Source of the DNA: Abyssibacter profundi
GTDB lineage: Bacteria; Pseudomonadota; Gammaproteobacteria; Nevskiales; OUC007
DNA length: 41,126 nt
Direction of reading: 5' to 3'
Assembly (NCBI RefSeq): GCF_003151135.1
Contig: NZ_QEQK01000021.1
Location: 1 to 41,126, forward strand
This document shows, one piece after another, positions 467 to 35,849 of this stretch. Below the pieces are notes generated by a model that did no database searches, had not been told where the DNA came from, and worked only from the letters and a program-made list of their open reading frames with translations. A program made the position numbers and the translations under genes. Every line of letters starts with the position of its first letter. Position 1 is the stretch's first letter.

Positions 467-1623
<1,157 letters not shown>

Positions 1624-1661: not shown

Positions 1662-1877
1662 TTACCCACAACACTCGCCCTCTTGGATAGGTGGGCACTT
1701 GACCGAACCGAAGCTACAAAATACACAGCAATCCTCCAGGTGAGGCTTTAAGACCTTTTGACAACCCTCGCAATCATAAAAGTACTGGCAAGCATTTGTG
1801 GGCATGGTTTCGGTTTTCTTGTGACCACAGTGCGGACAAGTAATCGTCGATTCTAGCTCTATGCCTCGGCTGAGCAT
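1662..1877 (-). CDS. GDCCVxC-type cysteine-rich mercury-associated protein
   Basis: A 71-residue protein with CPHC near the N-terminus, a CEGC pair, and EDCCVFC near the C-terminus. The last is the GDCCVxC signature with Glu in place of Gly, and Cys where some relatives have selenocysteine. Members of this small family sit in mer operons, but their biochemical role is not settled; metal or thiol chemistry is likely from the ten cysteines. The start is ATG at 1877, and the first 19 bases overlap the end of the transporter gene, indicating translational coupling. A longer reading frame starting at 1955 exists but lacks the family start. This is the last gene of the mercury cassette. Confidence 0.8.
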   Translation of the reverse strand: MLSRGIELESTITCPHCGHKKTETMPTNACQYFYDCEGCQKVLKPHLEDCCVFCSFGSVKCPPIQEGECCG

Positions 1878-2242
1878 TGATTGCACCTCTTTGATTCGTA
1901 GGTATTCCAAATGGCCGCAAGAACCAACCCGACCAAAGCAGAATACAGCAGCCATGCGATTAGTGAGACGTTATAGACAACAAGCAGGCCGATGACACAA
2001 GCAGCAGTTAAGACCAAGGGGCCGTACTTTCGATGCTGCCGAAATGACAAGATGGCTCCGACTACGGCGATGATTCCGAACGCCTGAACCAAGTAGGCAA
2101 TGTATTGTGAATAAGGCAGCAACGCCGACAAGCCTACGGCACCAGCGACTGATGCAAGAAACGGCAAACAGCATGGGGCTGCCGCAGCGGCAGCCGAAGC
2201 GATGCTTCCGACGCCGCCTATACTGACCAAGGATTCTTTCAT
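1859..2242 (-). CDS. MerC/MerT-like mercury(II) transporter
   Basis: A 127-residue inner-membrane protein with four predicted transmembrane segments (about residues 10-40, 46-66, 74-95 and 97-112). The first carries a vicinal cysteine pair in APCCLPF followed by a Gly/Ala-rich run, and the C-terminus ends with CNQC. Four helices and about 130 residues fit MerC better than three-helix MerT, although the CC pair is MerT-like. It would bring Hg(II) into the cytoplasm. It lies directly downstream of a MerR-type promoter. No periplasmic MerP and no MerA reductase gene are present, so the cassette is an incomplete mer operon. Confidence 0.75.
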   Translation of the reverse strand: MKESLVSIGGVGSIASAAAAAAPCCLPFLASVAGAVGLSALLPYSQYIAYLVQAFGIIAVVGAILSFRQHRKYGPLVLTAACVIGLLVVYNVSLIAWLLYSALVGLVLAAIWNTYESKRCNQCSAEA

Positions 2243-2275
2243 CTTGAAGCGACCTCCAACGGTTGAACAAGGTCA

Positions 2276-2306
2276 GCATAAGCTCCGTACCTAGGTACGG
2301 CTTCAA
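2276..2306 (-). promoter_or_regulatory. MerR operator and mer structural-gene promoter
   Basis: On the minus strand the -35 TTGAAG (2301-2306) and -10 TTATGC (2276-2281) are separated by 19 bp. Within the spacer lies the perfect palindrome CCGTACCTAGGTACGG (2285-2300). The overlong 19-bp spacer holding a CCGTAC-N4-GTACGG dyad is the hallmark of MerR-controlled mer promoters. The -35 overlaps the merR stop codon, so the promoter drives the transporter gene from inside the cassette. Confidence 0.9.
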
Positions 2307-2692
2307 GACTTCTGATCGATTAAGCTTTCGATGATTGGGCACCCCTCATAAGGACGACGCTCCTGACAGCCCGCCACAGCCTCCACCAAAACGGACTCAA
2401 TTCTGGACAGATCTGCCAGCTTTTCACGAACGAGCAAGAGCTTGCGACTCGCCACTTTTTCCACTTCGGAACAGTCCGACGCAGAGAGGCTAAGCAATGA
2501 AACCACTTCAGCAAGGGAAAAGCCAAGGGCTTGAGCACGCTTGATAAATTTCAGGCGCTTGAAATGCGATTCTGTGTAGTGCCGGTTTTGGCCGTATGGC
2601 TTTTCAGGCGTATCCAACAACCCCTGCCGCTGGTAGTACCGGACTGTCTCGACGGATACCCCGACGCTTTTTGCGAGCTCACCGATTCTCAT
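2303..2692 (-). CDS. merR: MerR mercury(II)-responsive regulator
   Basis: A 129-residue MerR-family protein. The N-terminal winged helix (IGELAKSVGVSVETVRYYQ) is followed by the dimerisation helix. Cys74, Cys109 and Cys118 keep the exact spacing (35 and 9 residues) of the three Hg(II) ligands of Tn501 MerR (82, 117, 126), so mercury sensing is well supported. The ATG lies only about 20 bases inside the cassette start (GTTAGAT core at 2708-2714), and no promoter of its own is evident, so it may be read from upstream cassettes. It lies in tandem with, rather than divergent from, the genes it controls. Confidence 0.93.
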   Translation of the reverse strand: MRIGELAKSVGVSVETVRYYQRQGLLDTPEKPYGQNRHYTESHFKRLKFIKRAQALGFSLAEVVSLLSLSASDCSEVEKVASRKLLLVREKLADLSRIESVLVEAVAGCQERRPYEGCPIIESLIDQKS

Positions 2693-2707: not shown

Positions 2708-2803
2708 ATCTAACGCTTGAATTCAGCGGCGCCGGAGCCCGCAGGGCGTAGGGAACCAAACACGCGGAGCGTGTTTGGCGTCCGATGCAATGATTTGTTG
2801 GGC
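2708..2803 (-). other. attC site 1
   Basis: A 96-bp imperfect palindrome bounded by ATCTAAC (2708-2714) and GTTGGGC (2797-2803). Inner arms are TTCAGCGGCG and GGCGTCCGATGC, and the tip is CCAAACACGC-GGA-GCGTGTTTGG. It separates the secreted-protein cassette from the mercury cassette. Confidence 0.9.
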
Positions 2804-2804
2804 A

Positions 2805-3242
2805 TCACTCCGACAACGCTGGTTCAACAAACGATTGAACTGCTTGTGCATCAGTGCTTGAAGCTTGTAAACACGTTAATTTGTCGAAGATTCGTGTTGT
2901 GTGGAATTCGGTTTCCTGGTTGTTCACTCTTTCCACAGCTACCAGCATTTCGAGGTTCCCTATCGTTTGTTGTGAAAGCACGCGCCGCTGAATTAGTGCG
3001 GAAGGTTCTTCCCGAGTTTCACACTCTTCTGCCTTTAGAAACGCAAGGTAGAGCGTAGGAGACTCGAGGCTCTCTTCGCATTGAATGCGAGTATAACCGT
3101 CGACGAGCGCCGGACCTGGAAACAGAACGCAGCCTACGGGTAGTGGGAATTCGCGATCAAATAGTGCAACTTCGGCAGCAGTGACTGCGCCCGTGACGAA
3201 GAAGGCGCTCAGCGCAAAAGAAGCGGCTGAAAATCGTTTCAT
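2805..3242 (-). CDS. Small secreted protein of unknown function (cassette gene)
   Basis: About 145 residues with a clear Sec signal peptide (MKRFSAASFALSAFFV, cleavage near VTAAE) followed by a soluble domain with several cysteines. No family was recognised. ATG at 3242 is chosen; a TTG three codons earlier lies inside the attC core. The ATG comes only a few bases after the core GTTGGGC, leaving no room for a promoter, so it depends on upstream transcription. The stop lies two bases before the attC. Export to the periplasm is the only functional statement supported. Confidence 0.7.
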   Translation of the reverse strand: MKRFSAASFALSAFFVTGAVTAAEVALFDREFPLPVGCVLFPGPALVDGYTRIQCEESLESPTLYLAFLKAEECETREEPSALIQRRVLSQQTIGNLEMLVAVERVNNQETEFHTTRIFDKLTCLQASSTDAQAVQSFVEPALSE

Positions 3243-3245
3243 GAT

Positions 3246-3344
3246 GCCCAACGCCTGAGTTCAGCGGCGTTTGAGGCGACGCCCGTTTTTGCGGCAGCAA
3301 AAATGGGCGGCGGGTCAAACGTCCGCTGCAACGATTTGTTATGC
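3246..3344 (-). other. attC site 2
   Basis: A 99-bp palindromic site bounded by GCCCAAC (3246-3252) and GTTATGC (3338-3344), with arms TTCAGCGGCGTTTGA and TCAAACGTCCGCTG and a G/C- and A/T-run-rich tip. It ends the two-gene cassette, whose last stop codon TAA is formed inside the core. Confidence 0.9.
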
Positions 3345-3908
3345 CGCAGCGGCGTGTACGTCAGAGAGGCTTGAGCTGAGTGATTCCAATGAGCCGTCAA
3401 TTCGTTTCAGTGCGGCTTTGGAATTTCTCATGACACCGATTTCAGGGACAGTTGCTACGCGCCTTTGTCGCCGTTGTGACTTTCCAACGACGTATTTGAG
3501 TGCACGGATCTGGGTCCGACTGTTTCTCCAAAGAACCTGACGAGTGACGCTAAAAAACTCGACCATCAACTGCAAAATGGCCTCGTTCTTTACGCGCTTC
3601 TCGATAATGCGAACGGTCCTTTGTTCTTCTGGAGAGGTGTGATACTTGGCGATCATTGAAACGATATGATCGATAGACATTGTCTCTACGCTCTTAATGT
3701 GGTAGTTGAGCGTGTCAACAATCTTCTTGTATTCCCAGGAATCTTCTTCAAGGTCGCCATTTATGACCATTAGCGCCAAACGGTCACGCAGGGAAAAATA
3801 ACGAAATCTGTATTTGTCTAACATGATTTCGTTATAAAGCTTAATTTGTTGTGCGGCGAAGTACAGCACTATAAGCAGTACACAAACGCCGATAAAAAAT
3901 TCCATCAT
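3339..3908 (-). CDS. Membrane-anchored protein of unknown function (second gene of a two-gene cassette)
   Basis: A 189-residue protein with one N-terminal transmembrane helix (FFIGVCVLLIVLYFAAQQ) followed by a long, charged, mostly helical cytoplasmic part and a basic segment (GKSQRRQRRVA). It was not recognised as a known family. Its ATG directly follows the TAG of the upstream cassette gene (TAGATGATG), so the two are translationally coupled and probably act together. Its stop falls in the attC core. Two-gene membrane cassettes in accessory arrays are sometimes stress or phage-defence modules, but nothing here proves that. Confidence 0.7.
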   Translation of the reverse strand: MMEFFIGVCVLLIVLYFAAQQIKLYNEIMLDKYRFRYFSLRDRLALMVINGDLEEDSWEYKKIVDTLNYHIKSVETMSIDHIVSMIAKYHTSPEEQRTVRIIEKRVKNEAILQLMVEFFSVTRQVLWRNSRTQIRALKYVVGKSQRRQRRVATVPEIGVMRNSKAALKRIDGSLESLSSSLSDVHAAAA

Positions 3909-4373
3909 CTACTCGTCAGCGGCTTTCGCAGGGTTGGTGGGCATGAGGTACTGTTCGGGGCAGTCTTCCTCACTTGAGCGATGTTGACGAATCTTGGCAT
4001 CAGGTCCATGCATCAACTCACTACGCACCGCGACTAGGCGCTCAATCTCATGCTTATATATAGACCTAAGCCGCTTTGTCAAGTACCACCAACCCCCATT
4101 TGTCACGATTAGCAGGGCGAACATGCCGCCAGCCGAGCCGCCAGCCTTAGAAATCAACAACTTAATTACTTCCGCCAACTCGTTCTCGGGCAATCGTACT
4201 ACCACGACGACACAGATGCTCAGGAGTACAAGACCAAACGCAGGGTAAATCTGACGGTTGTTGATGAGATCAAATATGCCTTCAAGGAAGACGACAAGAG
4301 CACGCCACCCGTTGTACTCCGCAGCCTTTTCCTGTCGCTTGTTGCCTCTGCCTTTCTTCTGTTTCGATGCCAT
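3909..4373 (-). CDS. Two-helix membrane protein of unknown function (first gene of a two-gene cassette)
   Basis: A 154-residue protein. It has a very basic N-terminus (ASKQKKGRGNKRQEK), two predicted transmembrane helices (YPAFGLVLLSICVVVVVRL, and the region around AGGMFALLIV), and a hydrophilic C-terminal tail with a predicted helix (IYKHEIERLVAVRSEL). No family was recognised. It is immediately followed, with no gap, by the membrane-anchored gene at 3339-3908. The start is ATG at 4373, about 70 bases inside the cassette. GTATACTGCTGTAAGA just upstream could serve as a weak -10 region plus ribosome site. Confidence 0.7.
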   Translation of the reverse strand: MASKQKKGRGNKRQEKAAEYNGWRALVVFLEGIFDLINNRQIYPAFGLVLLSICVVVVVRLPENELAEVIKLLISKAGGSAGGMFALLIVTNGGWWYLTKRLRSIYKHEIERLVAVRSELMHGPDAKIRQHRSSEEDCPEQYLMPTNPAKAADE

Positions 4374-4442: not shown

Positions 4443-4517
4443 GCATAACGCCGAAGTTGAGCGGCGCTTTTCGAAGCGCAGCGGAGAAAAGCGTCCGGCT
4501 CAAACGCCATGTTAGAA
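4443..4517 (-). other. attC site 3
   Basis: A 75-bp palindromic site bounded by GCATAAC (4443-4449) and GTTAGAA (4511-4517), with arms GTTGAGCGGCGCTTTTC and GAAAAGCGTCCGGCTC. It is the shortest of the array-1 sites. Confidence 0.88.
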
Positions 4518-4910
4518 CGCATTGCTGCGGTTACGATGACTCAAGCCACGCCGAATGCTTGCTGCGCCAAGAAACAGCAGAGTTGCTGAACCCAGCCCAA
4601 AAAGCGGAAAACTTGGCGGCGAGCTGCCCTCAGTGAACATTGCCGCTACGAGCACTGCGAGCACAACGAACTGGGCGACACCGAATAGAACTAGCCCTTG
4701 CCACGGAAACTTGGCGACAAAACCAAACGTGATCCCAAAAAACCACAGCCCCAGGCAGGTTCCGCAGACAACGGTTACGGCCTTAATGGCTAAACCCGCC
4801 TCGGGTAGCTGCACAATCAAGAAAACTGTCCCACCAACCAGTAACGCGCCAGCAAGACAAAGCAGTCGAACGGCGAAAGAATGGTTGCTTTCGTAATCAA
4901 GCAGAATCAT
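4512..4910 (-). CDS. Four-helix membrane protein of unknown function (first cassette of array 1)
   Basis: A 132-residue, strongly hydrophobic protein with four predicted transmembrane segments (about residues 13-35, 40-64, 70-92 and 100-118) and a basic C-terminus (IRRGLSHRNRSN). No family motif was recognised. The TAA stop is formed within the attC core at 4511-4517. The ATG at 4910 is a few bases inside the cassette after GTTAGAA. It is the first cassette after the leader sequence shared with the right-hand array. Confidence 0.7.
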   Translation of the reverse strand: MILLDYESNHSFAVRLLCLAGALLVGGTVFLIVQLPEAGLAIKAVTVVCGTCLGLWFFGITFGFVAKFPWQGLVLFGVAQFVVLAVLVAAMFTEGSSPPSFPLFGLGSATLLFLGAASIRRGLSHRNRSNAF

Positions 4911-4914
4911 GCGT

Positions 4915-5090
4915 GCGTTCTAACGCTTATTGGGTTGCAAAATGCCATATAACGCACGAGCGGCAGGCCGTATAACAAGCAAGAATGGGCTGTAATTGAT
5001 TGATTTCATTGGCGTGTGCTGTGAAAAGGCAGCCGCGCGAGCGAGCAAATGCGGCAAATTGCCGTATAACACGCAGCCTCGGTTCGGCCG
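4915..5090 (-). repeat. Leader of cassette array 1 with repeated attC-like boxes
   Basis: Bases 4915-4951 (minus strand) match 40226-40262 (plus strand) at 32 of 37 positions, including GGCATTTTGCAA and AGCGTTAGA, directly before the first cassette of each array. Upstream, GTTATA(C/T)GGC boxes recur at 4944-4953, 4967-4976 and 5061-5070. It could be a degenerate attI or a run of eroded attC sites; no integrase gene is adjacent. Confidence 0.55.
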
Positions 5091-5324
5091 TTGTCCACGG
5101 ATTGCCCTGATTGACGGGCTATTCGCGTAGTCAACGAATGATCCTGTCGGATAAATACTGCCATGTCCTCACCGCCTCGTCTGCAGGATTGGCTTCGTCA
5201 GGAATTAGGGTGAAACCTTACGAATTACACCGTTAAACGCCGCGCCGGCCCTTCGCTTCTATGGCCGCCTGCGCTTCTTCCGTGATTGGCTGCCCGCTCA
5301 TTGGCGCCCCCTTCGTTTGGCCCG
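5091..5324. other. Intergenic stretch with no recognised gene
   Basis: Transition from the cassette array to chromosomal sequence. No ORF with family features, RNA gene or clear terminator was seen on either strand. Confidence 0.5.
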
Positions 5325-5885
5325 TCACCTCGCCCATTTGATGTTGCAGCCCATGCTGGGGTGCTGCTGCGAGACATCCAACCGCTTGCCCTGCAACAGC
5401 GCATCCAGGGCAGCACGTAGGTCAGCACCCGTCACGGGCACGCCGTTACCCGGCGTCGATGCGTCCAGCCGCCCACGGTAGACGAGCGCCCGCTCGGCGT
5501 TAAAGACGAAAATGTCCGGCGTACAGGCGGCGCGATAGGCGCGGGCCACGTCCTGGGTTTCGTCGTATAGATAGGGGAACGGAAAGTCCTCAGCCTTTGC
5601 CAGCTTGGCCATGGCGTCAGGCCCATCCTCTGGGTGCGTGGAAACGTCGTTGGAGCTCACCGCGGCGAAGCCAATCCCCCTGGGCAGATACGCACGGCCG
5701 ATACGCAGCAACTCGTCGCGGACGTGGATGACGTAGGGACAGTGATTGCAGATGAACAGGATGACCGTGCCGCGCTCTCCTGCCACCTGGGCGTAGGACA
5801 GCTTGTCGCCACCACGCGTATCTGGCAGCAGGAAGTCGCTGGCTTTCGAGCCAAGGGCCAGCATCGTCGATTCCGTCAGGGCCAT
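5325..5885 (-). CDS. Thioredoxin-fold (AhpC/TSA-like redoxin) family protein
   Basis: About 186 residues in one thioredoxin-like domain. The redox site region reads FICNHCPYVIHVRDEL (CNHC), and the C-terminus has the family's PSMGCNIKW. Such proteins are usually annotated as thioredoxin family or redoxin and are presumed cytoplasmic thiol oxidoreductases; no specific substrate is known. The start is taken at ATG 5885 because GGAGA lies six bases before it. The ATG two codons upstream would overlap that ribosome site. The gene stands alone, and a MITE-end relic begins 19 bases upstream of the start. Confidence 0.85.
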   Translation of the reverse strand: MALTESTMLALGSKASDFLLPDTRGGDKLSYAQVAGERGTVILFICNHCPYVIHVRDELLRIGRAYLPRGIGFAAVSSNDVSTHPEDGPDAMAKLAKAEDFPFPYLYDETQDVARAYRAACTPDIFVFNAERALVYRGRLDASTPGNGVPVTGADLRAALDALLQGKRLDVSQQHPSMGCNIKWAR

Positions 5886-5903
5886 CGGCATTCTCCATTA
5901 GTA

Positions 5904-5947
5904 AGGAAGCACTGACGGGTTCGCGCCGCCCAGTTGCTGCCTGCAGA
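5904..5947 (+). repeat. Solo MITE-end relic
   Basis: GGAAGCACTGACGGGTTCGC followed by GCCGCCCAGTTGCTGCCTGC is a diverged copy of the left end of the 266-bp MITE at 20130-20395. No second end is found, so it is a remnant. It sits just upstream of the thioredoxin-fold gene start. Confidence 0.7.
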
Positions 5948-6059
5948 CTTTAAATCTAGAGAGGGCCGGGATCACCCTCCCAGCGGCGCGACCGCGTCAT
6001 TCGTCGGTTCCCTGTTCATGCCCGCGTGCATTCCATCGCAACTGCCGCTACTATCATCC

Positions 6060-6131
6060 GCCCATCCGGATAGGCAGATATGCGGCTTGCCGGAGTCATT
6101 CTTCACCTGCGCCGTGGTGGCAAGCCCCCGC
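6060..6131 (+). promoter_or_regulatory. Structured leader upstream of metK (candidate regulatory element)
   Basis: An imperfect 16-bp dyad GCCCATCCGGATAGGC (6060-6075) is followed by a perfect 8-bp stem GGCTTGCC (6084-6091) / GGCAAGCC (6119-6126), which can extend with a bulge to 6131. It ends 35 bases before the metK start. It does not match the SAH riboswitch consensus as I know it. It could be an operator plus leader hairpin, and its function is unproven. The rest of 5948-6165 shows no gene. Confidence 0.35.
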
Positions 6132-6165
6132 GGTGTTTCGTCTTGCACAACACGGTGACACAACC

Positions 6166-7338
6166 ATGAGCAAATCCTATCTCTTCACTTCGGAGTCGGT
6201 CTCCGAAGGCCATCCCGACAAGATGTGCGACCAGATTTCGGACGCCGTGCTGGACGAGATCCTGCGCCAGGAAGGCGATAACGCCCCGAATGCCCGTGTG
6301 GCCTGCGAAACCATGGTCAAGACCGGCTGCGTCATCGTTGGCGGTGAGATCACGACCAATGCCTGGGTCGACCTCGATGACCTCGTCCGCGGCGTGGTGA
6401 ACGACATCGGCTACACCCATTCCGACACCGGCTTCGACGGCCACTCCTGCGCGGTGATGTCGCTGATCGGCAAGCAGTCGGCCGAGATCGCCCAAGGCGT
6501 GGACCGCGCCACCAAGGAAGAACAGGGTGCTGGCGACCAGGGTCTGATGTTCGGCTTTGCCTGCAACGAAACCGAAGTGCTGATGCCGGCCCCAATCGAG
6601 TACGCGCATCGCCTGATTCGCAAGCAATCGGAAGTCCGACGCACCAAGCACCAGACCACGCTGCGTCCGGATGCGAAGTCGCAGGTCACGTTCCGCTATG
6701 TCGATGGCAAGCCCACGGCCATTGATGCCGTGGTGCTGTCTACGCAGCATAGCCCGGACATCGAGCAGAAAGCGCTGCAGGAACTGGTGATGGAAGAGAT
6801 CATCAAGCCGGTGCTGCCAGCCGAGTGGATCAGCCAGGACACCAAGTTCCACATCAACCCGACCGGCAAGTTCGTCATCGGCGGGCCCATGGGCGATGCC
6901 GGTCTAACCGGCCGCAAGATCATCGTCGACACCTACGGCGGTTACGCCCGCCATGGCGGGGGCGCGTTCTCCGGGAAGGACCCGTCCAAGGTCGATCGTT
7001 CGGCAGCCTATGCCGCCCGTTATGTGGCCAAGAACATTGTCGCCGCCGGGCTGGCCGACAAGTGCGAAATCCAGCTGTCCTACGCCATCGGCGTGGCCGA
7101 GCCGACCTCTGTGATGGTCGAGACGTTCGGCACGGGCAAGGTCGATGAGGAAACCCTCACCAAGCTGGTTCGCGAACACTTCGATCTGCGCCCCTACGGC
7201 ATCGTCACGATGATGGATCTGGTCAAGCCGATCTACCGAGACACCGCCACCTACGGACACTTCGGTCGCGAAGACCTGGACCTGCCCTGGGAGCGCACCG
7301 ACAAGGCCGAGGCCCTGCGCGGCGCCGCGGCAGCCTAA
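6166..7338 (+). CDS. metK: S-adenosylmethionine synthetase
   Basis: A 390-residue protein that makes S-adenosylmethionine from methionine and ATP. All family signatures are present: [16 protein letters not shown] near the N-terminus (ATP binding), [10 protein letters not shown], the central DAKSQVTF, and the glycine-rich loop [19 protein letters not shown]. Length matches the usual 380-400 residues. The start is ATG at 6166 ([17 protein letters not shown]); an upstream in-frame ATG at 6133 would add residues not seen in the family. It is the first gene of metK-ahcY-metF, which together run the methyl cycle, and is preceded by a structured leader. Confidence 0.97.
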
Positions 7339-7382
7339 TCGCACCCCATTCGACCCCCGACACAGAATTCACGGAGAAACAC

Positions 7383-8810
7383 ATGAGTGTTGCAGCAGAA
7401 GACATGAACACGGCCGACTACGTCGTCGCCGACATCAGCCTTGCCGCCTTTGGCCGCAAGGAAATCGAGATCGCCGAAACCGAAATGCCGGGCCTGATGG
7501 CCACGCGTGAAGAGTACGCCGCGTCACAGCCGCTCAAGGGCGCGCGCATCGCCGGCTCCCTGCACATGACCATCCAGACCGCCGTGCTGATCGAGACGCT
7601 CAAGGCACTGGGCGCCGACGTGCGCTGGGCCTCGTGCAACATCTACTCGACGCAGGATCATGCAGCCGCGGCCATTGCCGAAGGCGGCACGCCGGTCTTT
7701 GCCTTTAAGGGCGAGTCGCTGGAGGAGTACTGGAACTTCACCCACAAGATCTTCGAATGGTCAGACGGCGGCGTGCCGAACATGATCCTCGACGATGGCG
7801 GTGATGCCACGCTGCTGATCGACCTGGGTGCCCGCGCTGAAGACGATCCGTCGCTAATCGCCAACCCGGAAAGCGAAGAAGAGAAATACCTGTTCGCCGC
7901 CATCAAGCAGCGCAACGCCGAGCGTCCGGGCTGGTACAAGCAGTGTCTGGCGTCGATTCAGGGCGTGACCGAAGAAACCACCACCGGCGTGGCTCGCCTG
8001 TACAAGATGGCCAAGGAAGGCACGCTGCCGTTCCCGGCGATCAACGTGAACGACTCGGTCACCAAGTCCAAGTTCGACAACCTGTACGGCTGCCGCGAGT
8101 CGCTGGTCGACTCCATCAAGCGCGCCACTGACGTCATGGTGGCCGGCAAGACCGCCATCGTCTGCGGCTATGGCGATGTCGGCAAGGGCTCGGTCCAGTC
8201 GCTCAAGGCCCTGGGCTGCACGGTTTGGGTCACCGAAGTCGATCCGATCTGCGCCCTGCAGGCCTGCATGGAAGGCCACAAGGTCGTGAACCTCGAAGAC
8301 CCGGGCGTCATCGAGGCCGCCGACATCTTCGTGACCGCAACGGGTAACTACAACGTCATCCGTTACGAGCACATGGAGCGCATGCACCCGGAGACCATCG
8401 TCTGCAACATCGGCCATTTCGATAACGAAATCGACGTGGCCGCGCTGGAAGCCAAGTGCAAGTTCGATGAGATCAAGCCGCAGGTCGACCACGTCGAGTT
8501 CCCCGACGGCAAGAAGATCATCCTGCTGGCCCGCGGTCGTCTGGTGAACCTGGGCTGTGCCACCGGCCATCCGAGCTTCGTGATGTCCAGCTCCTTCACC
8601 AACCAGACGCTGGCGCAGATTGAACTGTTCACCAAGGGTGACCAGTACAAGAAGGACGTCTACGTCCTGCCCAAGCACCTGGATGAGAAGGTTGCCGCCC
8701 TGCACCTGGGCAAGCTGAACGCTCGCCTGACCAAGCTGACCGAGAAGCAGGCCGACTACATCGGCGTGACCGTCGACGGTCCGTTCAAGCCGGAAGCGTA
8801 TCGGTACTAG
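7383..8810 (+). CDS. ahcY: S-adenosylhomocysteine hydrolase
   Basis: A 475-residue cytoplasmic NAD-dependent enzyme that splits S-adenosylhomocysteine to adenosine and homocysteine, relieving inhibition of methyltransferases. The Rossmann motif GYGDVGKGS is at about residue 262, the N-terminal substrate region contains [12 protein letters not shown], and the protein ends in the conserved PFKPEAYRY. The length is that of the long bacterial form. GGAG lies eight bases before the ATG. It follows metK by 44 bases and precedes metF by 92, consistent with one operon. Confidence 0.97.
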
Positions 8811-8831
8811 GCCGACGCGCTGATGTTCGAG

Positions 8832-8861
8832 TCGCCGGCAGATCGCAACGATCTGTCGGCG
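8832..8861 (+). other. Intercistronic hairpin between ahcY and metF
   Basis: GCCGGCAGATCG (8832-8843) pairs with CGATCTGTCGGC (12 bp, one G-U pair) around a CAA loop. No T-run follows, so it is more likely an mRNA stabiliser, attenuator or processing site than a full terminator. Confidence 0.5.
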
Positions 8862-8902
8862 GCGATTCAAAGATTAGAGGCCCTTCGCGGCCCGGAGCAT
8901 TC

Positions 8903-9754
8903 ATGAGCGAGCTTCAATTCAGCTTCGAGTTTTTTCCGCCCAAGGGTGAGAAAGGCGCGACGCGGCTGGCCGAGGTCCGCAAGCAACTGGCTGCGTTGCA
9001 GCCGGCCTTCTTCTCGGTCACCTTCGGCGCCGGCGGTAGTACCCAGTCCGGCACGCTGGAAACCTGCATCGCCACCAAGCAGGACACCGGTTGCGACGTT
9101 GCCGCACATATTTCCTGTATCGGCTCCACCCGCGAGCGCATCAGCCAGTTGCTGGACGAATATCGTCAAGCGGGCATCAACCGCCTGGTCGCACTGCGCG
9201 GTGACCTGTTGCCGGGCATGACCGATCCCGGCGAGTTCCGCTACGCCAACGAGCTGGTCAGCTTCATTCGTGAAACCACCGGCGATGAGTTCCACATCGA
9301 AGTCGCTGCGTATCCGGAGTATCACCCCGAGTCACCCACGCCGGATGCCGATCTCGACAATCTGGTTCGCAAGGTTCAATGCGGCGCCGATGCGGTCATG
9401 ACTCAGTATTTCTACAACGTGCACGCCTATGAAGACCTAGTCGAGCGCCTGGCCGCACGGGGCGTGCGCGTGCCGGTTGTGCCCGGCATCATGCCGATCA
9501 CCAACCACGACCAGCTGATCCGTTTCTCGGATCGCTGCGGCGCGGAAATCCCGCGCTGGATTCGTCGCCGCCTTGAAGCCTTTGGCGACGATAGCGAGTC
9601 GCTGCGTGCCTTCGGCCTGGATGTGGTCGCGCAGCTATCGCGCAACCTGCTGGACCTGGGCGCCCCCGGCCTGCACTTCTACACGCTCAACCGCGCTGCA
9701 CCCACGTTGGAACTCTGGCAGGCGCTGCGCCTGCCGATGCCAGCGGCGGCATGA
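8903..9754 (+). CDS. metF: 5,10-methylenetetrahydrofolate reductase
   Basis: A 283-residue TIM-barrel flavoprotein that reduces methylene-THF to methyl-THF, the methyl donor for methionine synthesis. Seen: FEFFPPKGEKG at the start, TFGAGGSTQSGT, the ISCIGSTR segment, LVALRGDLLPG and VPGIMPITNH, all typical of bacterial MetF. Length matches the E. coli-type enzyme (about 296). A CGGAG ribosome site precedes ATG 8903. It is the last gene of the SAM-cycle operon, and its stop codon touches a strong hairpin. Confidence 0.96.
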   Translation: MSELQFSFEFFPPKGEKGATRLAEVRKQLAALQPAFFSVTFGAGGSTQSGTLETCIATKQDTGCDVAAHISCIGSTRERISQLLDEYRQAGINRLVALRGDLLPGMTDPGEFRYANELVSFIRETTGDEFHIEVAAYPEYHPESPTPDADLDNLVRKVQCGADAVMTQYFYNVHAYEDLVERLAARGVRVPVVPGIMPITNHDQLIRFSDRCGAEIPRWIRRRLEAFGDDSESLRAFGLDVVAQLSRNLLDLGAPGLHFYTLNRAAPTLELWQALRLPMPAAA

Positions 9755-9791
9755 CATCGGCGCCGCGGTCGGTTGACCGCGGCGCCGATGT
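9754..9791 (+). terminator. Strong hairpin terminating the metK-ahcY-metF operon
   Basis: A perfect 17-bp stem (ACATCGGCGCCGCGGTC with its complement, 9754-9770 and 9775-9791) closes a GGTT loop. It starts at the last base of the metF stop codon. No U-tract follows, but its position and strength suit an operon end. Confidence 0.7.
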
Positions 9792-9798
9792 CACGGAA

Positions 9799-9816
9799 CT
9801 GTCAACGGACTGTCAA
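9799..9816 (+). promoter_or_regulatory. Pho box (PhoB operator) of phoX
   Basis: Two direct repeats CTGTCAA (9799-9805 and 9810-9816) are separated by four bases (CGGA), the 7-4-7 layout of a PhoB box (consensus CTGTCAT). It lies 89 bases before the phoX start and points the same way. Confidence 0.8.
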
Positions 9817-9905
9817 CAAACCCCCACGCTAGCGTCACAGAGCCTGCCTAACCTGCCGGGATCGATCCACCGATCCACGTCATCAACCAGCAGGAGGCTC
9901 ACAGC

Positions 9906-11915
9906 ATGACGCGTAACCGCACCCCGATTCGGGACTCTCAGGCGCTGCACGACCTGGACCCCAGCACACCCCATACCGATAGCCGGCCCTTCGCCGATAT
10001 CCTGGCGGCGCGCCTGTCCCGTCGGGACACGCTGCGCGGCGGGCTCAGCCTTGCCGCCACCACGCTGTTTGCTGGCGCCGGGCTCTCCGCCTGCAGTGAC
10101 TCCGACAACGGCGGTCGCACCGCAGCCAAGCTGACCTTCGACTCCATCGCCGGTGGCCCCGAAGACCTCGTGCGCGTCCCGCCTGGCTACAACATGCAGG
10201 TCATGCTGCCCTGGGGTACGCCGCTCAACGGCGTTGCCCCCACATTCAATGGTGACGGCACCAACACTGCGGCAGAGCAGGAAGTCCAGATTGGCTCCAA
10301 CCATGACGGCATGAAGTTCTATCCCTTGCCGGCCGGGTCGAACACCTCAGACCACGGATTGCTGGTGATCAACCACGAGTATTCCAACAGCACCCTGTTT
10401 GCCGGGGACGGCCGCAGCGAGGACGCCGACGGCAAGCCCACCGACCCCGACGAAGTCCGCAAGGACATCTACGCCCACGGCGTGTCGGTCGTGGAGATGG
10501 TGCGCGGCATGAACGGCGAGTGGTCGATGGCCAACACGGGCTTTAACCGACGCATCACGGCCGCCACGCCCATCGATCTGGCCGGCCCGGTTGCGGGCAC
10601 CGACCTGGTGGTCACCGCTTACGACGCCACCGGCATGAGCACGCGCGGCACCGTCAACAACTGCGGTCGCGGCTTCACGCCTTGGGGCACCTATCTGGCC
10701 ACCGAGGAGAACTTCCAGGGCTATCAGACGACCCAGGAAGATCCGGTCCCCGAAGAAAAGTCTCGTTACGGCCTGAGCGCCACCGGATTCGGCTACCAGT
10801 GGGCCGCCGTGGCAGGCGATCCGTCCGAACAAAACGGCGAGTTCGCTCGCTGGGACACGACGCCCAACGCAGCCACTGCAGCGCTGGACTACCGCAACGC
10901 AGCCAATACCTTCGGCTGGCTGGTCGAGATCGACCCGTACGATCCGACCTCGCGACCGGTTAAGCGCACGGGCATGGGCCGCATCCTCCATGAGGGTGCC
11001 GAACCCGGTCGCGTGTTCGAAGGCCGTCCCATCGCCTGGTACATGAGTGACGACAACCGCTTTGACTACTTCTACAAGTATGTCTCGAATGCCAACTGGG
11101 ATCCGGCCGACGCCAACGGCGGACTCCAGGCGGGCAGCAAGTATCTGGATAACGGCCGGTTGTACGTGGCCAAGTTCGCCGAAGATGGCACCGGCGAATG
11201 GGTCGAACTGGATATCAGCGTACCGGCCCTGGCCGCCCGCTTTACCTCCCAAGCCGAGGTCCTGACTTACGCACGGATCGCCGCGGATCTCGTCGGCGCC
11301 ACGCCGATGGACCGTCCGGAATGGTCGACCACCGACCCGAATACCGGCGAGATCTACCTCACCCTGACCAACAACACCCGGCGTAGCGAGGGCGATGAAA
11401 ACCCCGCCAACCCGCGCGCCAATAACAGCCACGGTCACATCATCCGCCTGGCAGAAGCCAACGACGACCCGGCTGCGACCAGCTTCACCTGGGACATCTT
11501 CGTCTTCGGCTCGAACGCCTCCGCTGACCCATCCTTCAACATCTCCGGCCTGACGCTGGACAACGAGTTCGGCAGCCCGGATGGCCTGTGGTTCGATGCG
11601 CGCGGCGTGCTCTGGATTCAGACCGACAACGGCGCGCCGTTGGACTCGGACAGCAATGATCAGATGCTGGCCGTCATCCCCGCCGGCCTGGAGGGCGATC
11701 GACTGATCCGTCCGGAGACCCAGGCGCAGCTCAAGCGTTTCTTCGTCGGGCCGGCCGGCTGCGAGGTCACCGGCGTGGACATGACACCGGATTATCGAAC
11801 CATGTTCGTCAATATCCAGCATCCGGGTGGCAGCTTCCCCGACGGGCCGGGCAACCGCCCGCGGTCGGCCACCGTGATCATCAGTCGTGAAGACGGCGGA
11901 GAGATCGCCCTCTAA
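9906..11915 (+). CDS. phoX: PhoX-type alkaline phosphatase (Tat-exported)
   Basis: A 669-residue protein of the PhoX/DUF839 family, calcium- and iron-dependent phosphatases that release phosphate from organic esters outside the cytoplasm. The N-terminus has a twin-arginine motif (SRRDTL, Arg39-Arg40), a hydrophobic stretch, and GLSAC with Cys63, so it may be a Tat-exported lipoprotein. Family segments include NHEYSN, CGRGFTPWGTYLATEEN, MDRPEWS and GCEVTGVDMTPDYRTMFVNIQHPG. Length fits the family. The Pho box just upstream implies induction by phosphate starvation. An AGGAGG-like site (GCAGGAGGC) precedes the ATG. Confidence 0.93.
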   Translation: MTRNRTPIRDSQALHDLDPSTPHTDSRPFADILAARLSRRDTLRGGLSLAATTLFAGAGLSACSDSDNGGRTAAKLTFDSIAGGPEDLVRVPPGYNMQVMLPWGTPLNGVAPTFNGDGTNTAAEQEVQIGSNHDGMKFYPLPAGSNTSDHGLLVINHEYSNSTLFAGDGRSEDADGKPTDPDEVRKDIYAHGVSVVEMVRGMNGEWSMANTGFNRRITAATPIDLAGPVAGTDLVVTAYDATGMSTRGTVNNCGRGFTPWGTYLATEENFQGYQTTQEDPVPEEKSRYGLSATGFGYQWAAVAGDPSEQNGEFARWDTTPNAATAALDYRNAANTFGWLVEIDPYDPTSRPVKRTGMGRILHEGAEPGRVFEGRPIAWYMSDDNRFDYFYKYVSNANWDPADANGGLQAGSKYLDNGRLYVAKFAEDGTGEWVELDISVPALAARFTSQAEVLTYARIAADLVGATPMDRPEWSTTDPNTGEIYLTLTNNTRRSEGDENPANPRANNSHGHIIRLAEANDDPAATSFTWDIFVFGSNASADPSFNISGLTLDNEFGSPDGLWFDARGVLWIQTDNGAPLDSDSNDQMLAVIPAGLEGDRLIRPETQAQLKRFFVGPAGCEVTGVDMTPDYRTMFVNIQHPGGSFPDGPGNRPRSATVIISREDGGEIAL

Positions 11916-11957
11916 GGCAGCGCTGATGTCTTAAGCGGCGCTGGTCGCCGCGAATAG

Positions 11958-11989
11958 AAACAGGCCCGATCTCAGGATCGGGCCTGTTT
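11958..11989. terminator. Bidirectional rho-independent terminator
   Basis: AAACAGGCCCGATC (11958-11971) pairs perfectly over 14 bp with its complement ending CCTGTTT (11976-11989), around a TCAG loop. A/T runs lie on both sides. It serves the converging phoX (+) and lipoprotein (-) genes. Confidence 0.9.
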
Positions 11990-12008
11990 CGTTGGGGCGT
12001 CTGTCAGC

Positions 12009-13115
12009 CTAGTTTGGCTGCTGCGCCAGGACCGCCATGTCCACGAAGTAGCCGGCATAGCGGGTGGCAATATCTTCGTAGGCCGTCGGATCGGCCTCCA
12101 CGGCCCACTCCGTGCGGTCGTATGATCCGCCGGTGCCGCCCGCCAACGCGGTCAGCACCCCGATTGCACTGGCCAGCCCCTCGGCCACCTTGCTTCCGGC
12201 AGACTGGGCATCCGACATTCCCGTGTAGAAAGGATCAGAGGACACCAGGGGTCGCGAAGACTGATACGCCGGCCACGCGGTCCACATGGTGTCGCAGCCC
12301 AGCTTGTGACAATGGATGACGTCCGGCGTGACCAGCTTGAGTACCCCGCTGGTTGCCAGCTTGACCGAAGTCGACAGCGAGGCTTCGTCGCGGCCCACGT
12401 TACGGCCGATAAAGCCGGTGTATTGCTCGTCGCTGCTACTGACATTGGCAAAGTCGACCATCAGGTCAAGATGAACACCGGTCACGCCCAGTTCGTCGAC
12501 CAGCTTGGCTTCAAGCGCCTGCGGATTGCTCCGCGAGGCCTGGGCAAAGATGTTCTTGATGCCCCGGGCCTTGCCGTCAAAACGCTGATCGAACAACGTC
12601 CAACCTGTGGGCACGAAGACACGATAGTCCGACTTGCCCAGCGACCAGTCGACAGGGGCCTGTCGACCCTTGGCCGCCACGGCCTGGTATGCCGAGGTGG
12701 CCGCCAACTCAGCATGGGGCATCACGTCCAGCCCGGCGTCGGCCAGTTGGCGCTCCGCCCGGGCACAGATGGCATCCGTCATCGACTGCATTTGCGCATC
12801 GCCAATCCCCTCCAGCTGGTACAGCGTGCTGACCTTGGCCTCGACTCTGGCCTTGTCGGGATCCTGATAGGCAAATGTCCCGGCCTGGGTCTGGGCAAAA
12901 CCGCTGGTCTTGGTGCCAAAGGCCACCACGCAAGAGGTCAACGCAACCCGCCGAGACTCACCGCGTGTCTTGGTGTTCGCGGGCCGAATGAAGCTCGAGA
13001 CTTGGCTGGCGGCATCCAGCGCGGGGTTGAACTCCGGGGGCGGTGCGGCAGTCTGCGTCGAGGCACAACCGGCCAGCAAAGCCACACCCAGCGTCAAGGG
13101 AACCATTGTTTTCAT
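12009..13115 (-). CDS. Putative lipoprotein of unknown function
   Basis: A 368-residue protein with a signal peptide and lipobox (LLAGC, Cys17), so it is probably anchored in the outer membrane or facing the periplasm. The mature part begins with a Pro/Ala-rich linker. No enzyme motif or named family was recognised. A cysteine pair (HCHKLGCD) occurs in the C-terminal half, and a glycine-rich stretch (LAGGTGGSYDR) lies near the end. It converges with phoX and is followed upstream, in the same direction, by the lipase lipoprotein after a 92-base gap. Confidence 0.8.
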   Translation of the reverse strand: MKTMVPLTLGVALLAGCASTQTAAPPPEFNPALDAASQVSSFIRPANTKTRGESRRVALTSCVVAFGTKTSGFAQTQAGTFAYQDPDKARVEAKVSTLYQLEGIGDAQMQSMTDAICARAERQLADAGLDVMPHAELAATSAYQAVAAKGRQAPVDWSLGKSDYRVFVPTGWTLFDQRFDGKARGIKNIFAQASRSNPQALEAKLVDELGVTGVHLDLMVDFANVSSSDEQYTGFIGRNVGRDEASLSTSVKLATSGVLKLVTPDVIHCHKLGCDTMWTAWPAYQSSRPLVSSDPFYTGMSDAQSAGSKVAEGLASAIGVLTALAGGTGGSYDRTEWAVEADPTAYEDIATRYAGYFVDMAVLAQQPN

Positions 13116-19317: not shown

Positions 19318-21673
19318 TTAAGGGTCCGCGGACTCCCGCAGCTCAGCGGCCACCGTCTCGGCCCGCTCCCACATCTGCAGATAGGCTTCGGCGGCGCCGA
19401 ACAGAATCTCCAGCGCCTGGTCCCCGCCTTCGTGCTGCGCCATGTCCGCCAGCAGGTCCGCGTACTGGCCATAGTGCGCCACGCCGTCCACATTCAGGTC
19501 GTACACACGCTCCCCCGTGACCTGCCGGTCGAAACGAACGGCGCCGTCATGGGAGGTGAACGGATAGACCAGCGGTTTGTCACCGGCATCGGCGCGGGGC
19601 GCCGGCTGCGATGCTAACCCGCCGGCGTCGGAGGCAAAGCCCGCCGCGGTGAAGGTCTCCGGCCCGATCAACTCGCGCAGGGTTAGCAGCTCGTCGATTA
19701 AGGCAGGTGCCTGGTTGTTGAATGGTGAGACCAGCCCGCCCAGGGCGAAGATGCGACGCTTTTGGGTCTCGGTGGTGATGCCACCCGTTCCGGTATGACC
19801 GGAGATCAGCGGATACCCCACCGACTCGGCCAGCGCGAAAATCGCCTCCTTGGACTCGACACTGGTGTGGTCTGTCTCGATGAGCAGACCGCGCCGCATC
19901 AGGCTTTCGATCATCTGGTGCCCCAGCTCGGTGAGACCCAGCGCATTGCAGTGCGGACCGGGCGGGTAGGTCGGCACGGCCAGTGCCTGGGCCTCGTTCA
20001 GCGCCTGAGAAACCGGGTCGTCACCTTCGAAGAACACCCCGCCGGAGACCTGCTGCGAGCCCTGCCCCGGCTCGCGACATTGTGTGACCCGGTAGTAATG
20101 CCCCGTCTCCAGCTTGTTGAACAGGTTTAGGGAAGCACTGATTGATTCGCGCCGCCAAGTTGCTGCCTGCAAACAGGCCAGGCAAGGCGCGAGGAGCGAA
20201 GTTTGGTCATTCCAAATGAGCGACGAGCAACGCAGTCTGGCCTGTTTGCAGGCGCAATCCTGACGGAACGGGCCGGTTTTCCCGCGAGCCTGCGTTGTCG
20301 TTCGCTGACTTGGAATGACCAAGCGGCACTCACTCCGCCTGGGCTCGCGGGAAAACCGGCTCCGTCTTGGTGGTGCGAATCAATCAGCGCTTCCCTATCG
20401 CCAGCTCCGTGGGTCCGAACAAGCCCGGCCCCGACACCGCATTGTCGAACCAGTGCGACGGGAAGATCGAGCGAATGCCCATGCCCTCGATCTCGTCGAT
20501 CGCCGCCTCCATGGATTCGGCCGTGCACTGCGGCGCGTCCATGACCTCACCGCAGCCAAAGATCTTGGATGACTCCACGCCCATGACCACGGCCAGCTGC
20601 CCGGCTTCGATCACCGAGCGCGCCTCGGCGGGCGACGTCACGATCCGCAGAAACCCCTGGCCGGGACCGCCGGCCTGGGCGTCGATATAGTCCTGCAACT
20701 CCAGCAACCCCTGGTGTTGCAGGCGCACCGAGGTCATCTCATCGCAACTGTTGCGCTTAAGCGGCGCGATGTTGCAAAGCCCCTCGTCAGCGGTGAAGTG
20801 GTTGACGACCAGCCGTAATCCGGCCATCCACGCACGCTGCAACCAGACGTAGTAGGTCTGCTGGTGCGACAGGGTGTTATGCACCGGCCACTCGCTAAAC
20901 GTGGGCCACCCGTCGCTGGCATGCGAACCCGTGGGCTGGCCTTCACGCTGAAAATTGCCGATGAAATCGGCCGATCCGTCAACGCCGTGGTTTTCGGTGC
21001 AGGCGTTCAGCGCCGATGTCACGCCATAAGGATGAAACGGACGACCGTGGACCACCTGCCCACCCAGCCGCTCAAAGGCCATTAAATGCACATGGGTGTC
21101 GGTGAAGCCCCGAACCGTGCCATCGGCCAAGCTGCCCGAGAACGGCGTCCCCACGGCGTTGAGTTCGGCCTCGGGAAACGGCGTGCAGCCTGTGCCCGCG
21201 GGCACCGCCAGGGCCGTCACGTCCCCGTCGGCCGGCGCATCCGTGACGGCCAGACCACCATCGGCCGTCAGCACGAGCTGGCCCGATCCGTCCCCTGCCT
21301 GGAATGCCGTGCCGCCGTCGACCAGCGAGACCACCCAGTCTGCAGCCTCGCTTGCCATATCGGCCGGAGCCAGGCCACCGGCCTGCGCGGCCAGCAGCCG
21401 GGCGTCGACATCCTGCAACAGGTAGCGACCTAGCGCCGACGGCTTGAAGTAGATCGGTGCGGCCTGCTCCCGATCGTCCACCAGGTGGTAGCCACTGGAA
21501 TCGGCCGCGATGAAACGCTGACCGTCGCCGATGAGCCAGCAGGCATTGGCATAGGCGAAACGCGTGTCGGCCAGTTGCTCGGCAGCCGGGGTACCGGCGT
21601 TCGAGCCACAGCCCGTCAGGACCGCCAAAGCGGTGAGGCACGGCATCAGGCGCCGTGTAGATTGTTCAAACAT
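19318..21673 (-). pseudogene. M19-like/amidohydrolase-superfamily lipoprotein, interrupted by a MITE
   Basis: Without the insert at 20130-20395 and one TA, the frame reads straight through (TELAI joined to NLFNKLETG), giving about 695 residues. The N-terminus is a lipoprotein signal (ALAVLTGC). Metal-site motifs include FTDTHVHLMAF and, after the insert, IETDHTS and LISGHTGTGG, resembling membrane dipeptidase (M19) and related amidohydrolases. The insert adds an in-frame TGA, so the surviving 5' part encodes only 429 residues without the second half of the active site. The start is ATG 21673. It lies 76 bases downstream of the giant hydrolase gene in the same direction. Confidence 0.85.
20130..20395. 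mobile_element. 266-bp palindromic MITE with TA target duplication
   Basis: Terminal inverted repeats of about 29 bp (GGGAAGC(A/G)CTGATTGATTCGC onward, three mismatches), flanked by TA on both sides (20128-20129, 20396-20397). The interior consists of two long hairpins: a perfect 17-bp stem starting GCCTGCAAACAGGCCAG, and one with arms GGCCGGTTTTCCCGCGAGCC and GGCTCGCGGGAAAACCGGC. The two halves also resemble each other as inverted copies around TTGGTCATTCCAA. No coding capacity. TIR style suggests mobilisation by an IS5- or IS630-like transposase, which is inference. Confidence 0.92.
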
Positions 21674-21749: not shown

Positions 21750-24700
21750 CTAGCTCGTCGGGCAGGCGTCGCCGACGAGATTGATGCAACTGCGGTTCGT
21801 GTTGCCGTAGGCATCACGAATACCGCCCGGGGCGATGTAGGCCGGGCCGTCGCCGACGGTGGCCTCCCAGTTCAGGCCATCCGGACTTTGCGCGGGCACG
21901 GTCCGAATCTGGCCACCGGCTTCCACCGTGGTCACCTCCACCTGCTCGCCCACGCCAGTATCCCGCCAGGGTCGGAAGCTGCAGCGATGGCAGTACTGCT
22001 CCTCGACACCACCGGCATAGCGATGCATGTTGCGCTCGTTCCGCAGCCAGGGCATGAGCGACGCATCTCCCGCGGCGACAACCGACCAGGTGTCCGGGTA
22101 GTCGATGGGCCCCACCGTGCGCGGGCCGAACTGGTTTGTGGGTTCACGCGTGTTGGCACCGCGCTGGAACGCCTCGTGCACGGTCACCGGGCCCAGGCCG
22201 AAGCGGACGATGCCCGCATTGACGGCGGCCTGTTCGGCAGTAATCCCGCCCCAGGGTCGCACCTCGAAGGGATCGCTGGTCAAGGCATAGTCGACCGGGC
22301 CACCCAGATCCTGCCGCTGGCCCGCGATCACGAACCGGTAGGTCCCCGCTGGCGTGGCATACGGCCCAAGCGGGCGGCTGCTGTCATTCGCATCGGTGAC
22401 CGCCACCTCAGAGGCAAACGCCTCATAGCCTGCGGTCCACACCCATTCGAATTGCCCGGCGCGCCAGGCACCGTAGTCGGCCGGATCGGGAATCACCACA
22501 CCCTGGAAGTCACCGTCGCCCTCGATGTAGGTCCCGCCCAGGAAGTCGACATGCAGCGGCACCTCGCCCTGCTGGTCGCCCACGACGATCCATTGCTCGC
22601 CTTCGAGCCGCTCCACCGTCACCGTCGGCATGCCCAGCCAGGTCGCCCCGCCGATCCACTGGACCGTCGCGGCGTCAAAGCGCTCGATGTCCTGCGGCTG
22701 CGTCACAATGCTCGGCGTGCCGCCGTCGGTCGGTTGGGTCAGGTCGTAGACCAGACGCACGCCCCGGCCGATTTCACCCAGCGACTGCGCCAGCAGTTCT
22801 GCCCGGCCCGATTCGGCCAGATACGCCAGATCGCGCGGTGACGGCATCATGCCCGCCCCACCATTCAGACTGGCGGCCAACCGCGACATGCGCGTGGCCA
22901 GGAAGTCCGCGCCATGCGGGCCCAGGCCGGCCAATGCCTTGCGGTAGTGGTCATGCGCCCGGTACTCGCGATACGCCGGCATGTAGCCCCAGTAGTCATT
23001 GGCCATGCCCACCGGAATCACCAGTCCATAGCCCTGATCCGGGTGCTCTTCATGCGTGAAGTTGCCGAGAATCTGGGCCGGGTCGGTCGGCTCGGCCTCG
23101 GCATGCAGCGGCGTCCACAGGCCGCCGTTCGCATCGGCCCGGATCAACTCGTCATCCCAGCCCGCAGCATTGTTGTGAATCTGCGCCTTCATCACATCAA
23201 AGGCCGTGCGTGTGGTGCTCAGCAGGCTGCCATTGCCGCGGCTGGGGTGTGGACACACGGCGGTGTCGGCATCCACCGTGCAACCGACTTCATCGGCACC
23301 GTGGACGAAGTCACCATTGGCGCCGGGATCACGCAGCGGGTTGTCACCGGCATAGCCCACATCCCAGTCCCAGCCCGTGTGAATATCGCCGGCCACCTGG
23401 TTCAGACGGCTGATGACGTTGAGCGCCGGATCGGTGAACTGCTCGCATGGACAGAAAGTCACGGCGACATCGCCCAGCTTGAAGGCCTGGATCGGCACCG
23501 TGGCCTGTTCTTCGACCAGCCCCAGCGTGGTGGCGCTGTAGCTCACCGGCAAGGGCACGCCCAGCTCGGCCAGCTGATCGGCGAGTCCGCCCGTGACGCT
23601 GGTCAGCGCCGCATGCACGTCGTCGTAGCTCACCGGCGGCTCCTCTCCGAAGAACTCGGTGAGCGCGTCCTCAAAGGGCTCGACGACCGTGCCCTCAACA
23701 TCATCGGCCACGTGTTCGCAATCCGGGAAGCCGATCACCGGCACCCCTGGATTGGCGTCGTAATACAAGCGGTCCGCATTGCAGTTCGACACCCCGGGGA
23801 TGGGCCGCGTCACCGGCGGCGCGAAGCGCTGATAGGCATAGTCGACCACAAAGTCATTGCTGCGGGCGGCGAACTGGTGGGGATCCCAGGGCGTGTCGGT
23901 GGCGATCCGCTCCAGCGCCTCCAGCACCGTGTCGGCGGCCTGCAGGGCCGCGCGATGCGCGCCGGCAAACGCGGCCTCCTGATACTCGTGACGCTCGGCC
24001 CCATCGTGAGCCCGCTCATCCTTATGCGGCCCGGCGGTGCCGGTCTCGGACTGCGACATCAAATTGATGGCGCCGGTCTCGCGATCCAGCAATCGCATGG
24101 TTGCGTGGGTCAGGTCGCCGGAGATCACTTCCTCGCCCCAAACCCATTCGGGGTGCACACCCAGCACCACCCAGTTGATCAGGTTGTCGCCGGTCACGGC
24201 ATCATCAAAGCGCAGCACGTACAGCTGCCGCGTGGTGTAGTCGTAGGGCTGCCCGGCCGGGGTATTGGGGCTGCGCTGTTCCTGCGAAATCTTGGGCCCG
24301 TAGGTATGACCACGGACGTCGTTGGCATACACGGCCGCACCACCCATGGTCACCGGTCGCATGGACTCGGCCGCCTCGACGATGGCATCACGCATCTGCT
24401 GCGCCATGTAGTCATAAAAGCGGATGTCGAATACATCCTGGAAGATCCAGGTGCCAAAGGCCGGGGTGGAGTAGAACGGCGAGGCATGTGAATGCGACAC
24501 CGTCATGGCCAGATTGGCCTCGGTAATACCGGTGGGCGTGCGGCCCTCCAGCACGGCCAGCGCATCGTGCTCGGCCAGCAGTTGCACCAGCCGGCGCCGC
24601 ATCAGGTCGTTGGGCAGGTACAGGTCGTTGGTCGCAACGGCCACACGCTTGCCATTGCCGCCCTCGACCACCAGCGCCCGTGTGGTGATGCGGTCCGCCA

Positions 24701-35844: not shown

Positions 35845-35849
35845 GCGTT

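Follow-up and report, generated by a model that had tools for sequence, protein, structure and literature searches.

How can two gene-cassette arrays that point away from each other on one contig begin with the same leader when no intact integrase gene accompanies either of them? This question is raised by the window, i.e., the whole stretch of 41,126 nucleotides of Abyssibacter profundi DNA analysed here (contig NZ_QEQK01000021.1, C21 in the following). The preliminary description of this DNA had offered three explanations: duplication of an integration platform, a secondary attI-like site or a past inversion. G000 denotes the A. profundi genome itself, a draft assembly in which both window arrays end in insertion sequences at contig ends. 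G001 (assembly 88% complete) and G002 are congeners, and G026 and G042 are two genomes of one genus in a family other than that of G000.

The two window leaders are related

A leader shared by both arrays was confirmed. The best ungapped 37-mer agrees at 32 of 37 positions (left, 4914-4950, minus strand; right, from 40227, plus strand). The maximum in a control of 2000 random 200-base stretches of the window interior was 26/37, and nothing above 22/37 against the left 37-mer was found elsewhere in the window on either strand. A repeat finder returned two inverted pairs, 4914-5003/40174-40263 (90 nt, 73%) and 5037-5074/40103-40140 (38 nt, 79%), which are co-linear and together span about 150 bases. 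Overall, the left and right leaders are 71% alike over 164 bp, and the left leader matches its counterpart on contig C12 of the same genome with 82% over 290 bp. The recurring boxes reported earlier are present as GYTATAYGGC at 4944, 4967 and 5061 (minus) and at 40107 and 40224 (plus), but this motif alone is not rare. As evidence in its own right it was discarded, because its 20 genome-wide matches compare with 29 for a reversed-pattern control. What counts as evidence is therefore the spacing of the boxes together with the homology of their flanks.

Both leaders have the structure and position of attI

In each leader, three direct-repeat boxes lie upstream of a GTTRRRY crossover core at the border of the first cassette (Table 1), which reads GTTAGAAC at 4924-4917 (minus) on the left and GTTAGAGC from 40253 on the right. 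On both sides the leader similarity stops at the GTTAGA core, where the first cassette starts, and attC sites follow. Both leaders align with the stretch between intI and array in two other integrons of G000, on C12 and, more distantly, on C19. A model (R2), built from the crossover-side 82 bases of seven sites and run on 146 genomes, also matches G026 C10 (E 0.0016) and G042 C49 (E 0.0018), neither of which was used in building; both matches lie upstream of an intact intI, at a distance of about 76 bases, and point away from it. Since the leaders are homologous to attI beside intact intI and directly precede attC arrays, we regard them, judging by sequence, as the attI sites of two separate chromosomal integrons lacking a whole intI.

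The term 'secondary attI-like site' was thus apt in that both are attI by homology and position, but an integrase of their own is missing: a 16-codon stub stands beside the left site, and no adjacent intI was found on the right. A leader that is simply the attC of a common cassette is excluded, as an attC model built from 14 sites of G000 and one congener, four window attC among them, matches these four window sites and neither leader. Two further candidates were rejected. A secondary site of the attG type is ruled out by the extended attI homology, both between the leaders and between the left one and C12. A mobile integron, plasmid- or phage-borne, was dismissed after comparison of the left leader with 72,556 plasmid records and of the right leader with 50,697 phage records, neither of which gave a match.

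Table 1 Features of the two arrays and their surroundings in the window.
Feature	Position	Strand	Remarks
IS110/IS1111-type transposase	673-1623	+	IS interrupts next attC of left array
Fourth cassette, left array, mer-type	1662-2692	-	MerR regulator 2303-2692, MerC-like membrane protein 1859-2242, small ORF 1662-1955
attC 3, left array	2708-2803	-	attC model
Third cassette ORF, left array	2805-3251	-	148 aa, no Pfam family
attC 2, left array	3246-3344	-	attC model
Second cassette, left array	3339-4373	-	Two ORFs, 3909-4373 and 3339-3908, no Pfam family
attC 1, left array	4443-4517	-	attC model
First cassette ORF, left array	4512-4910	-	132 aa, membrane-protein-like by eye, no Pfam above cut-off
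Left attI crossover	between 4924 (G) and 4923	-	
Left attI (putative)	4924-5074	-	Leader family of about 150 bp; homologous to attI of C12
Left attI boxes	5061-5070 (box 1), 4967-4976 (box 2), 4944-4953 (box 3)	-	CCCAATAAGCGTTAGAAC
intI remnant, left platform	5163-5213	+	MSSPPRLQDWLRQELG, then stop; remaining intI deleted
Core gene flanking left platform	5325-5891	-	Next to metK; thioredoxin-like by eye
Core gene flanking right platform	38750-39934	-	Zinc alcohol dehydrogenase-like by eye
Right attI (putative)	40103-40253	+	Homology to left leader and model
Right attI boxes	40107-40116 (box 1), about 40201-40210 (box 2), 40224-40233 (box 3)	+	
Right attI crossover	between 40253 and 40254	+	
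First cassette ORF, right array	40263-40631	+	122 aa, no Pfam family
attC 1, right array	40626-40712	+	attC model
Second cassette ORF, right array	40728-41126	+	Cut by contig-ending insertion sequence, IS30-like by eye

A remnant of intI beside the left site and one intact integrase in the genome

The earlier statement that no integrase is visible is correct insofar as the contig carries no whole intI, but it missed the remnant beside the left site. Twelve of 14 aligned residues of this stub are identical to the start of the C12 IntI (42/51 nt), and it occupies the same position relative to attI as the intI start on C12. The left array therefore represents an integron with intI deleted beyond codon 16. 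No intI remnant was detected in 37000-40300 near the right site, where similarity does not extend outward beyond box 1 (40103).

A search of the whole genome for the leader and for IntI proved productive, yielding six leader copies and a single intact IntI. The latter is encoded on C19, reaches 462 bits (family cut-off, 265) and aligns with the solved Vibrio integrase 2A3V over 313 residues. On C12, a repeat element truncates intI, leaving about 76 residues, and G001 and G002 contain truncated forms only. Comparison of intI from C19, C12 and G001 gave pS values of 0.63 to 0.86, i.e., near saturation, and pN values of 0.10 to 0.19, which indicates that the intI lineages are old and have long been under selection. 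A MITE-like element with inverted repeats, about 270 bp long and repeated in the genome, is present in the window at 20128-20397 and partially at 5902-5948 and 35849-35887; further copies lie at about 1080-1500 of L002 and about 4270-4545 of L075. The intI gene is interrupted by an element of this kind on C12 and, judged by eye, independently in G002.

attI sites outnumber intact integrases in G000 and its relatives

The six attI of G000 are C21-left, C21-right, C12, C19 and two sites on C5, at 171 kb and at 348 kb, the last comprising only the crossover-side part. Four were found in G001, i.e., C311, C369, C148 and C52; the C52 match scores poorly (E 0.048), yet five or more attC follow it. 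When G026 was searched with the attI of its intact integron on C10, further sites emerged on C2 (94%), C14 (96%, split by about 280 bases) and C27 (92% over 51 bases), and a search of G042 with the G026 attI yielded C49 and C23 (90% over 51 bases). This amounts to 16 sites over four genomes (six, four, four and two in G000, G001, G026 and G042). An intact intI stands beside three of the 16 (C19, G026 C10, G042 C49), a truncated, broken or fragmentary one beside four (C12, C311, C2 with a pseudo-intI and C14 with a fragment) and a short stub beside two (C21-left, C369). No intI was found beside the remaining seven (C21-right, both C5 sites, C148, C52, C27, C23), and tblastn for intI at C148, C52 and C5 at 348 kb gave no match at E 0.05. 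The recombinase matched on the C27 contig was excluded as intI, since it is another tyrosine recombinase (34% identity) and neighbours a gene judged IS91-like by eye. No intact intI was present in the assembly of G001. The ratio of attI copies to intact integrases is thus 6 to 1 in G000 and 16 to 3 over the four genomes.

At 12 of the 16 sites the model detected an attC downstream. Those for which it detected none are C12, whose contig ends in an insertion sequence, C14, C27 and C5 at 348 kb, which heads one cassette with its attC interrupted by an IS end. The more closely related attI pair up within lineages, namely C12 with C21-left, G001 C311 with C369 (91% over 155 bases) and G026 C10 with C2 and C14. 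Platform copying therefore looks repeated and lineage-specific.

Model R2 returned 17 rows across 9 of the 146 genomes searched, seven rows being its building sites. Weak matches with E values from 0.006 to 0.05 were obtained in G037, G021, G133, G119 and G006, and an attC scan covering two of these five genomes detected none. Note that the test for multiple attI copies outside the family of G000 concerned a single genus, chosen after a model match and hence non-random (2/2 genomes). A cross-phylum pattern scan produced five loci, two of them from G001; the other three, from Tenericutes, Chitinophagaceae and Cytophagales records, could be chance matches. In a crude motif search of 31 intI-adjacent loci, the ending AATAAGCGTT was present only at G000 C19 and one other locus, because attI is too divergent for a crude motif.

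Arrays appear as insertions at the loci compared

In G000, 2.9 kb separate the two core genes that flank the C5 array. In G001 these genes have only a short gap between them; the aligned pieces end at 3356 and resume at 3467 of L156, gene ends included. The array of G001 C369 is missing from G000 behind the orthologous gene pair, and no attI was found in G001 beside the orthologues of either window flank, i.e., the dehydrogenase gene on the right and the left flanking gene. In G002 and G003, the sequence after the oxidoreductase gene at the C5 locus differs. By these comparisons, the arrays would be insertions and not ancestral sites at the tested loci.

The same data bear on the proposal of a past inversion. 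If one ancestral integron had been split by inversion or translocation between the left and right leaders, their outward orientation from a 35-kb block would be readily accounted for. The two leaders are, however, merely 71% alike, further copies reside on other contigs with different neighbours, G001 is devoid of attI at the matching loci and G002 is collinear with window 6046-13046, with further blocks up to 17814. We thus consider this scenario highly improbable, and the data can be explained without it.

Probable copying of platforms and persistence of attI after loss of intI

All six visible array heads in G000 carry attI, which points to platform copying with loss of intI. The idea of a duplicated integration platform is well supported by the homology of the window leaders to the attI of C12 and, more distantly, C19 and by the intI stub kept on the left. 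In our judgement, the probable explanation is that platforms were copied and intI was lost while attI persisted. Copies of integron platforms (intI plus attI) would have arisen at new chromosomal positions in the lineage of G000 and would then have lost intI through truncation, repeat insertion or deletion, with 16 codons kept at the left platform and none recognisable at the right one. The attI would have stayed at the head of the cassette array, where it may still capture and release cassettes via an integrase acting in trans, here the IntI of C19. The sites are ordinary in kind, being those of broken integrons, and unusual in form in that attI outnumber intact integrases. More tentatively, a distributed integron can be envisaged, in which one chromosomal integrase serves scattered attI, selection keeps a core of about 55 bp where intI is gone, and attI is a spreading, integrase-free capture port in this order of Gammaproteobacteria.

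In principle, the orphan attI could be fossils of plain degraded integrons, whose intI was lost recently and whose attI is recognisable through the short time elapsed. This is a real possibility, albeit one we doubt. The similarity between C12 and C21-left is roughly the same in the stub, the spacer and attI (attI 117/130, with a gap of 23 nt, versus 81/90 in the spacer, i.e., no excess conservation of attI), only truncated intI occur in G001 and G002, and both loss of intI and intI-less attC clusters are described as common in the sections of PMC9024848 and PMC2426708 devoted to them. The orphan sites of G001 in particular may be fossils, because its 88%-complete assembly holds no intact intI. 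Against a fossil origin, the attI of G001 C369 is 90% identical to that of C311 despite an eroded stub and spacer: 137 of 153 positions agree without gaps, as compared with 52/71 in the spacer (37 gapped) and 74/92 at the intI end (40 gapped), and blastn beyond attI recovered only a 49-base patch of 75.5%. Three copies (C5 at 348 kb, G026 C27 and G042 C23) keep only about 45-56 bp beside the crossover. G026 C27 and G042 C23 match their intact attI only in 51-60 bp at this point, with unalignable flanks; though residing at different loci, they have 56 bases (85.7%) in common, which reach the crossover and continue for a few bases; the compared stretches share no other similarity. Conservation of attI while spacer and stub erode fits use in trans; a promoter role, recent loss or gene conversion could also explain it. 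A point against recognition in trans is that the window sites carry TTATAYGGC boxes (type A) and C19, beside the only intact intI of G000, carries TTAGGYGGC (type B); the only type A integrase seen, that of C12, is truncated. One attI of G001 holds boxes of both types, which makes recognition of both by related integrases plausible, as far as sequence can tell.

Retention of the attI stretch as a promoter or translation leader of the cassettes, and not for recombination, appears unlikely. Promoters or translation aids do occur in or near the attI of class 1, class 2 and Vibrio integrons (passages in PMC8876359), but here the conserved core reaches the crossover and takes in the repeat boxes, and a sigma-70-like promoter was not found in either leader, which is a weak test. 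We also think it improbable that attI fragments spread inside delta-attI cassettes inserted at attG secondary sites instead of as whole platforms. Mobile integrons do contain such cassettes, which recombine, according to the part of PMC12901181 dealing with them, and C5 at 348 kb, G026 C27 and G042 C23 consist of the crossover-side part only. In contrast, C21-left, C12, C369, C311, C2 and C14 have intI remnants in the right place, so that these six moved or arose as platforms.

Relation to known integrons and cassette clusters

Like attI1 of class 1 integrons, the sites are simple, have a G/TTRRRY crossover preceded by direct-repeat boxes and stand at the array head (attI1 features as summarized in part of PMC12901181). 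They differ from attI1 in sequence, in their greater length (about 150 bp with three boxes and a core of about 55 bp) and in occurring several times per genome, mostly without an adjacent intI. The standard detection tool ignores attI outside class 1, and attI outside class 1 are poorly described, as stated in portions of PMC9024848. By the detection rules laid out in excerpts of PMC9024848 and PMC8618304, the left array of the window and that of C5 qualify as CALINs. The left array comprises three attC and no intI gene (at least two attC with no intI nearby define a CALIN), and the right array has one attC before the contig end, as compared with the at least two required. What sets the arrays here apart is a recognisable attI at their start and, in some of them, an intI stub.

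Dispersed CALINs of Xanthomonas are likewise attC clusters at several loci away from intI, but no attI at such clusters is reported in the available portions of that study (PMC12444791). Delta-attI cassettes of mobile integrons carry a partial attI away from intI that is functional with IntI1 (excerpts of PMC12901181); there, attI replaces the attC of a cassette inside an array, whereas here it heads a chromosomal array. In Treponema phagedenis, integron remnants have also lost intI and retained cassettes, but they concern one genome and, in the accessible parts of PMC3607928, were analysed on the basis of attC rather than attI. Pseudo-intI are frequent, as are genomes with two or more intI (sections of PMC2426708). 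Among open-access titles and abstracts, the scope of our literature search (subscription papers lay outside it), none addressed several attI per genome with one integrase.

The origin of intI-less cassette clusters is debated (parts of PMC8618304); loss of intI, off-target insertion and rearrangement have been put forward (parts of PMC8618304 and PMC9024848). Six attI-headed arrays point to platform copying plus loss of intI. A direct test is offered by building an attI model for each intact integron and seeking it at the heads of the intI-less clusters of the same genome. If orphan sites work in trans, an integrase would not be confined to a single locus for cassette capture, and functional integrons would be undercounted wherever intI is required to adjoin attC.

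Cassettes, insertion sequences and contig ends

The attC of the right array is 84 to 88% identical over 80 to 91 bases to attC of the C13, C5 and G001 C311 arrays, and the arrays of G000 and G001 thus appear to draw on a common cassette pool. The left end of the window contig (1-147) equals the start of C13 with an overlap of exactly 147 bases, and its right end (40980-41126) is identical to the last 147 bases of C12. These shared ends look like assembler overlap at repeats or insertion sequences, and the left array may have its tail on C13. The ends of the IS110/IS1111-type element in the window lie near 361-480 and 1625-1663. The two ends recur at array tails on C5 (both), C13, C2 and G001 C369, and array tails therefore look like a preferred IS target.

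Toxin-antitoxin cassettes (PIN, CcdAB, ParE, Phd/ParE) occur in the array tails of C2 and C13 as well as within the C19 array (410-1813 of L125, 2467-3002 of L124 and 9124-9703 of L073). From position 348164 of C5 onwards (2165-4360 of L179), the short attI is followed by one large cassette that encodes a C5 cytosine methyltransferase and contains another gene, which has no Pfam match and perhaps encodes a restriction enzyme. Between the two platforms, 21750-33908 of the window (minus strand) is one open frame of 4052 codons; by eye, it encodes a very large multi-domain protein with a lipoprotein-like start and repeats.
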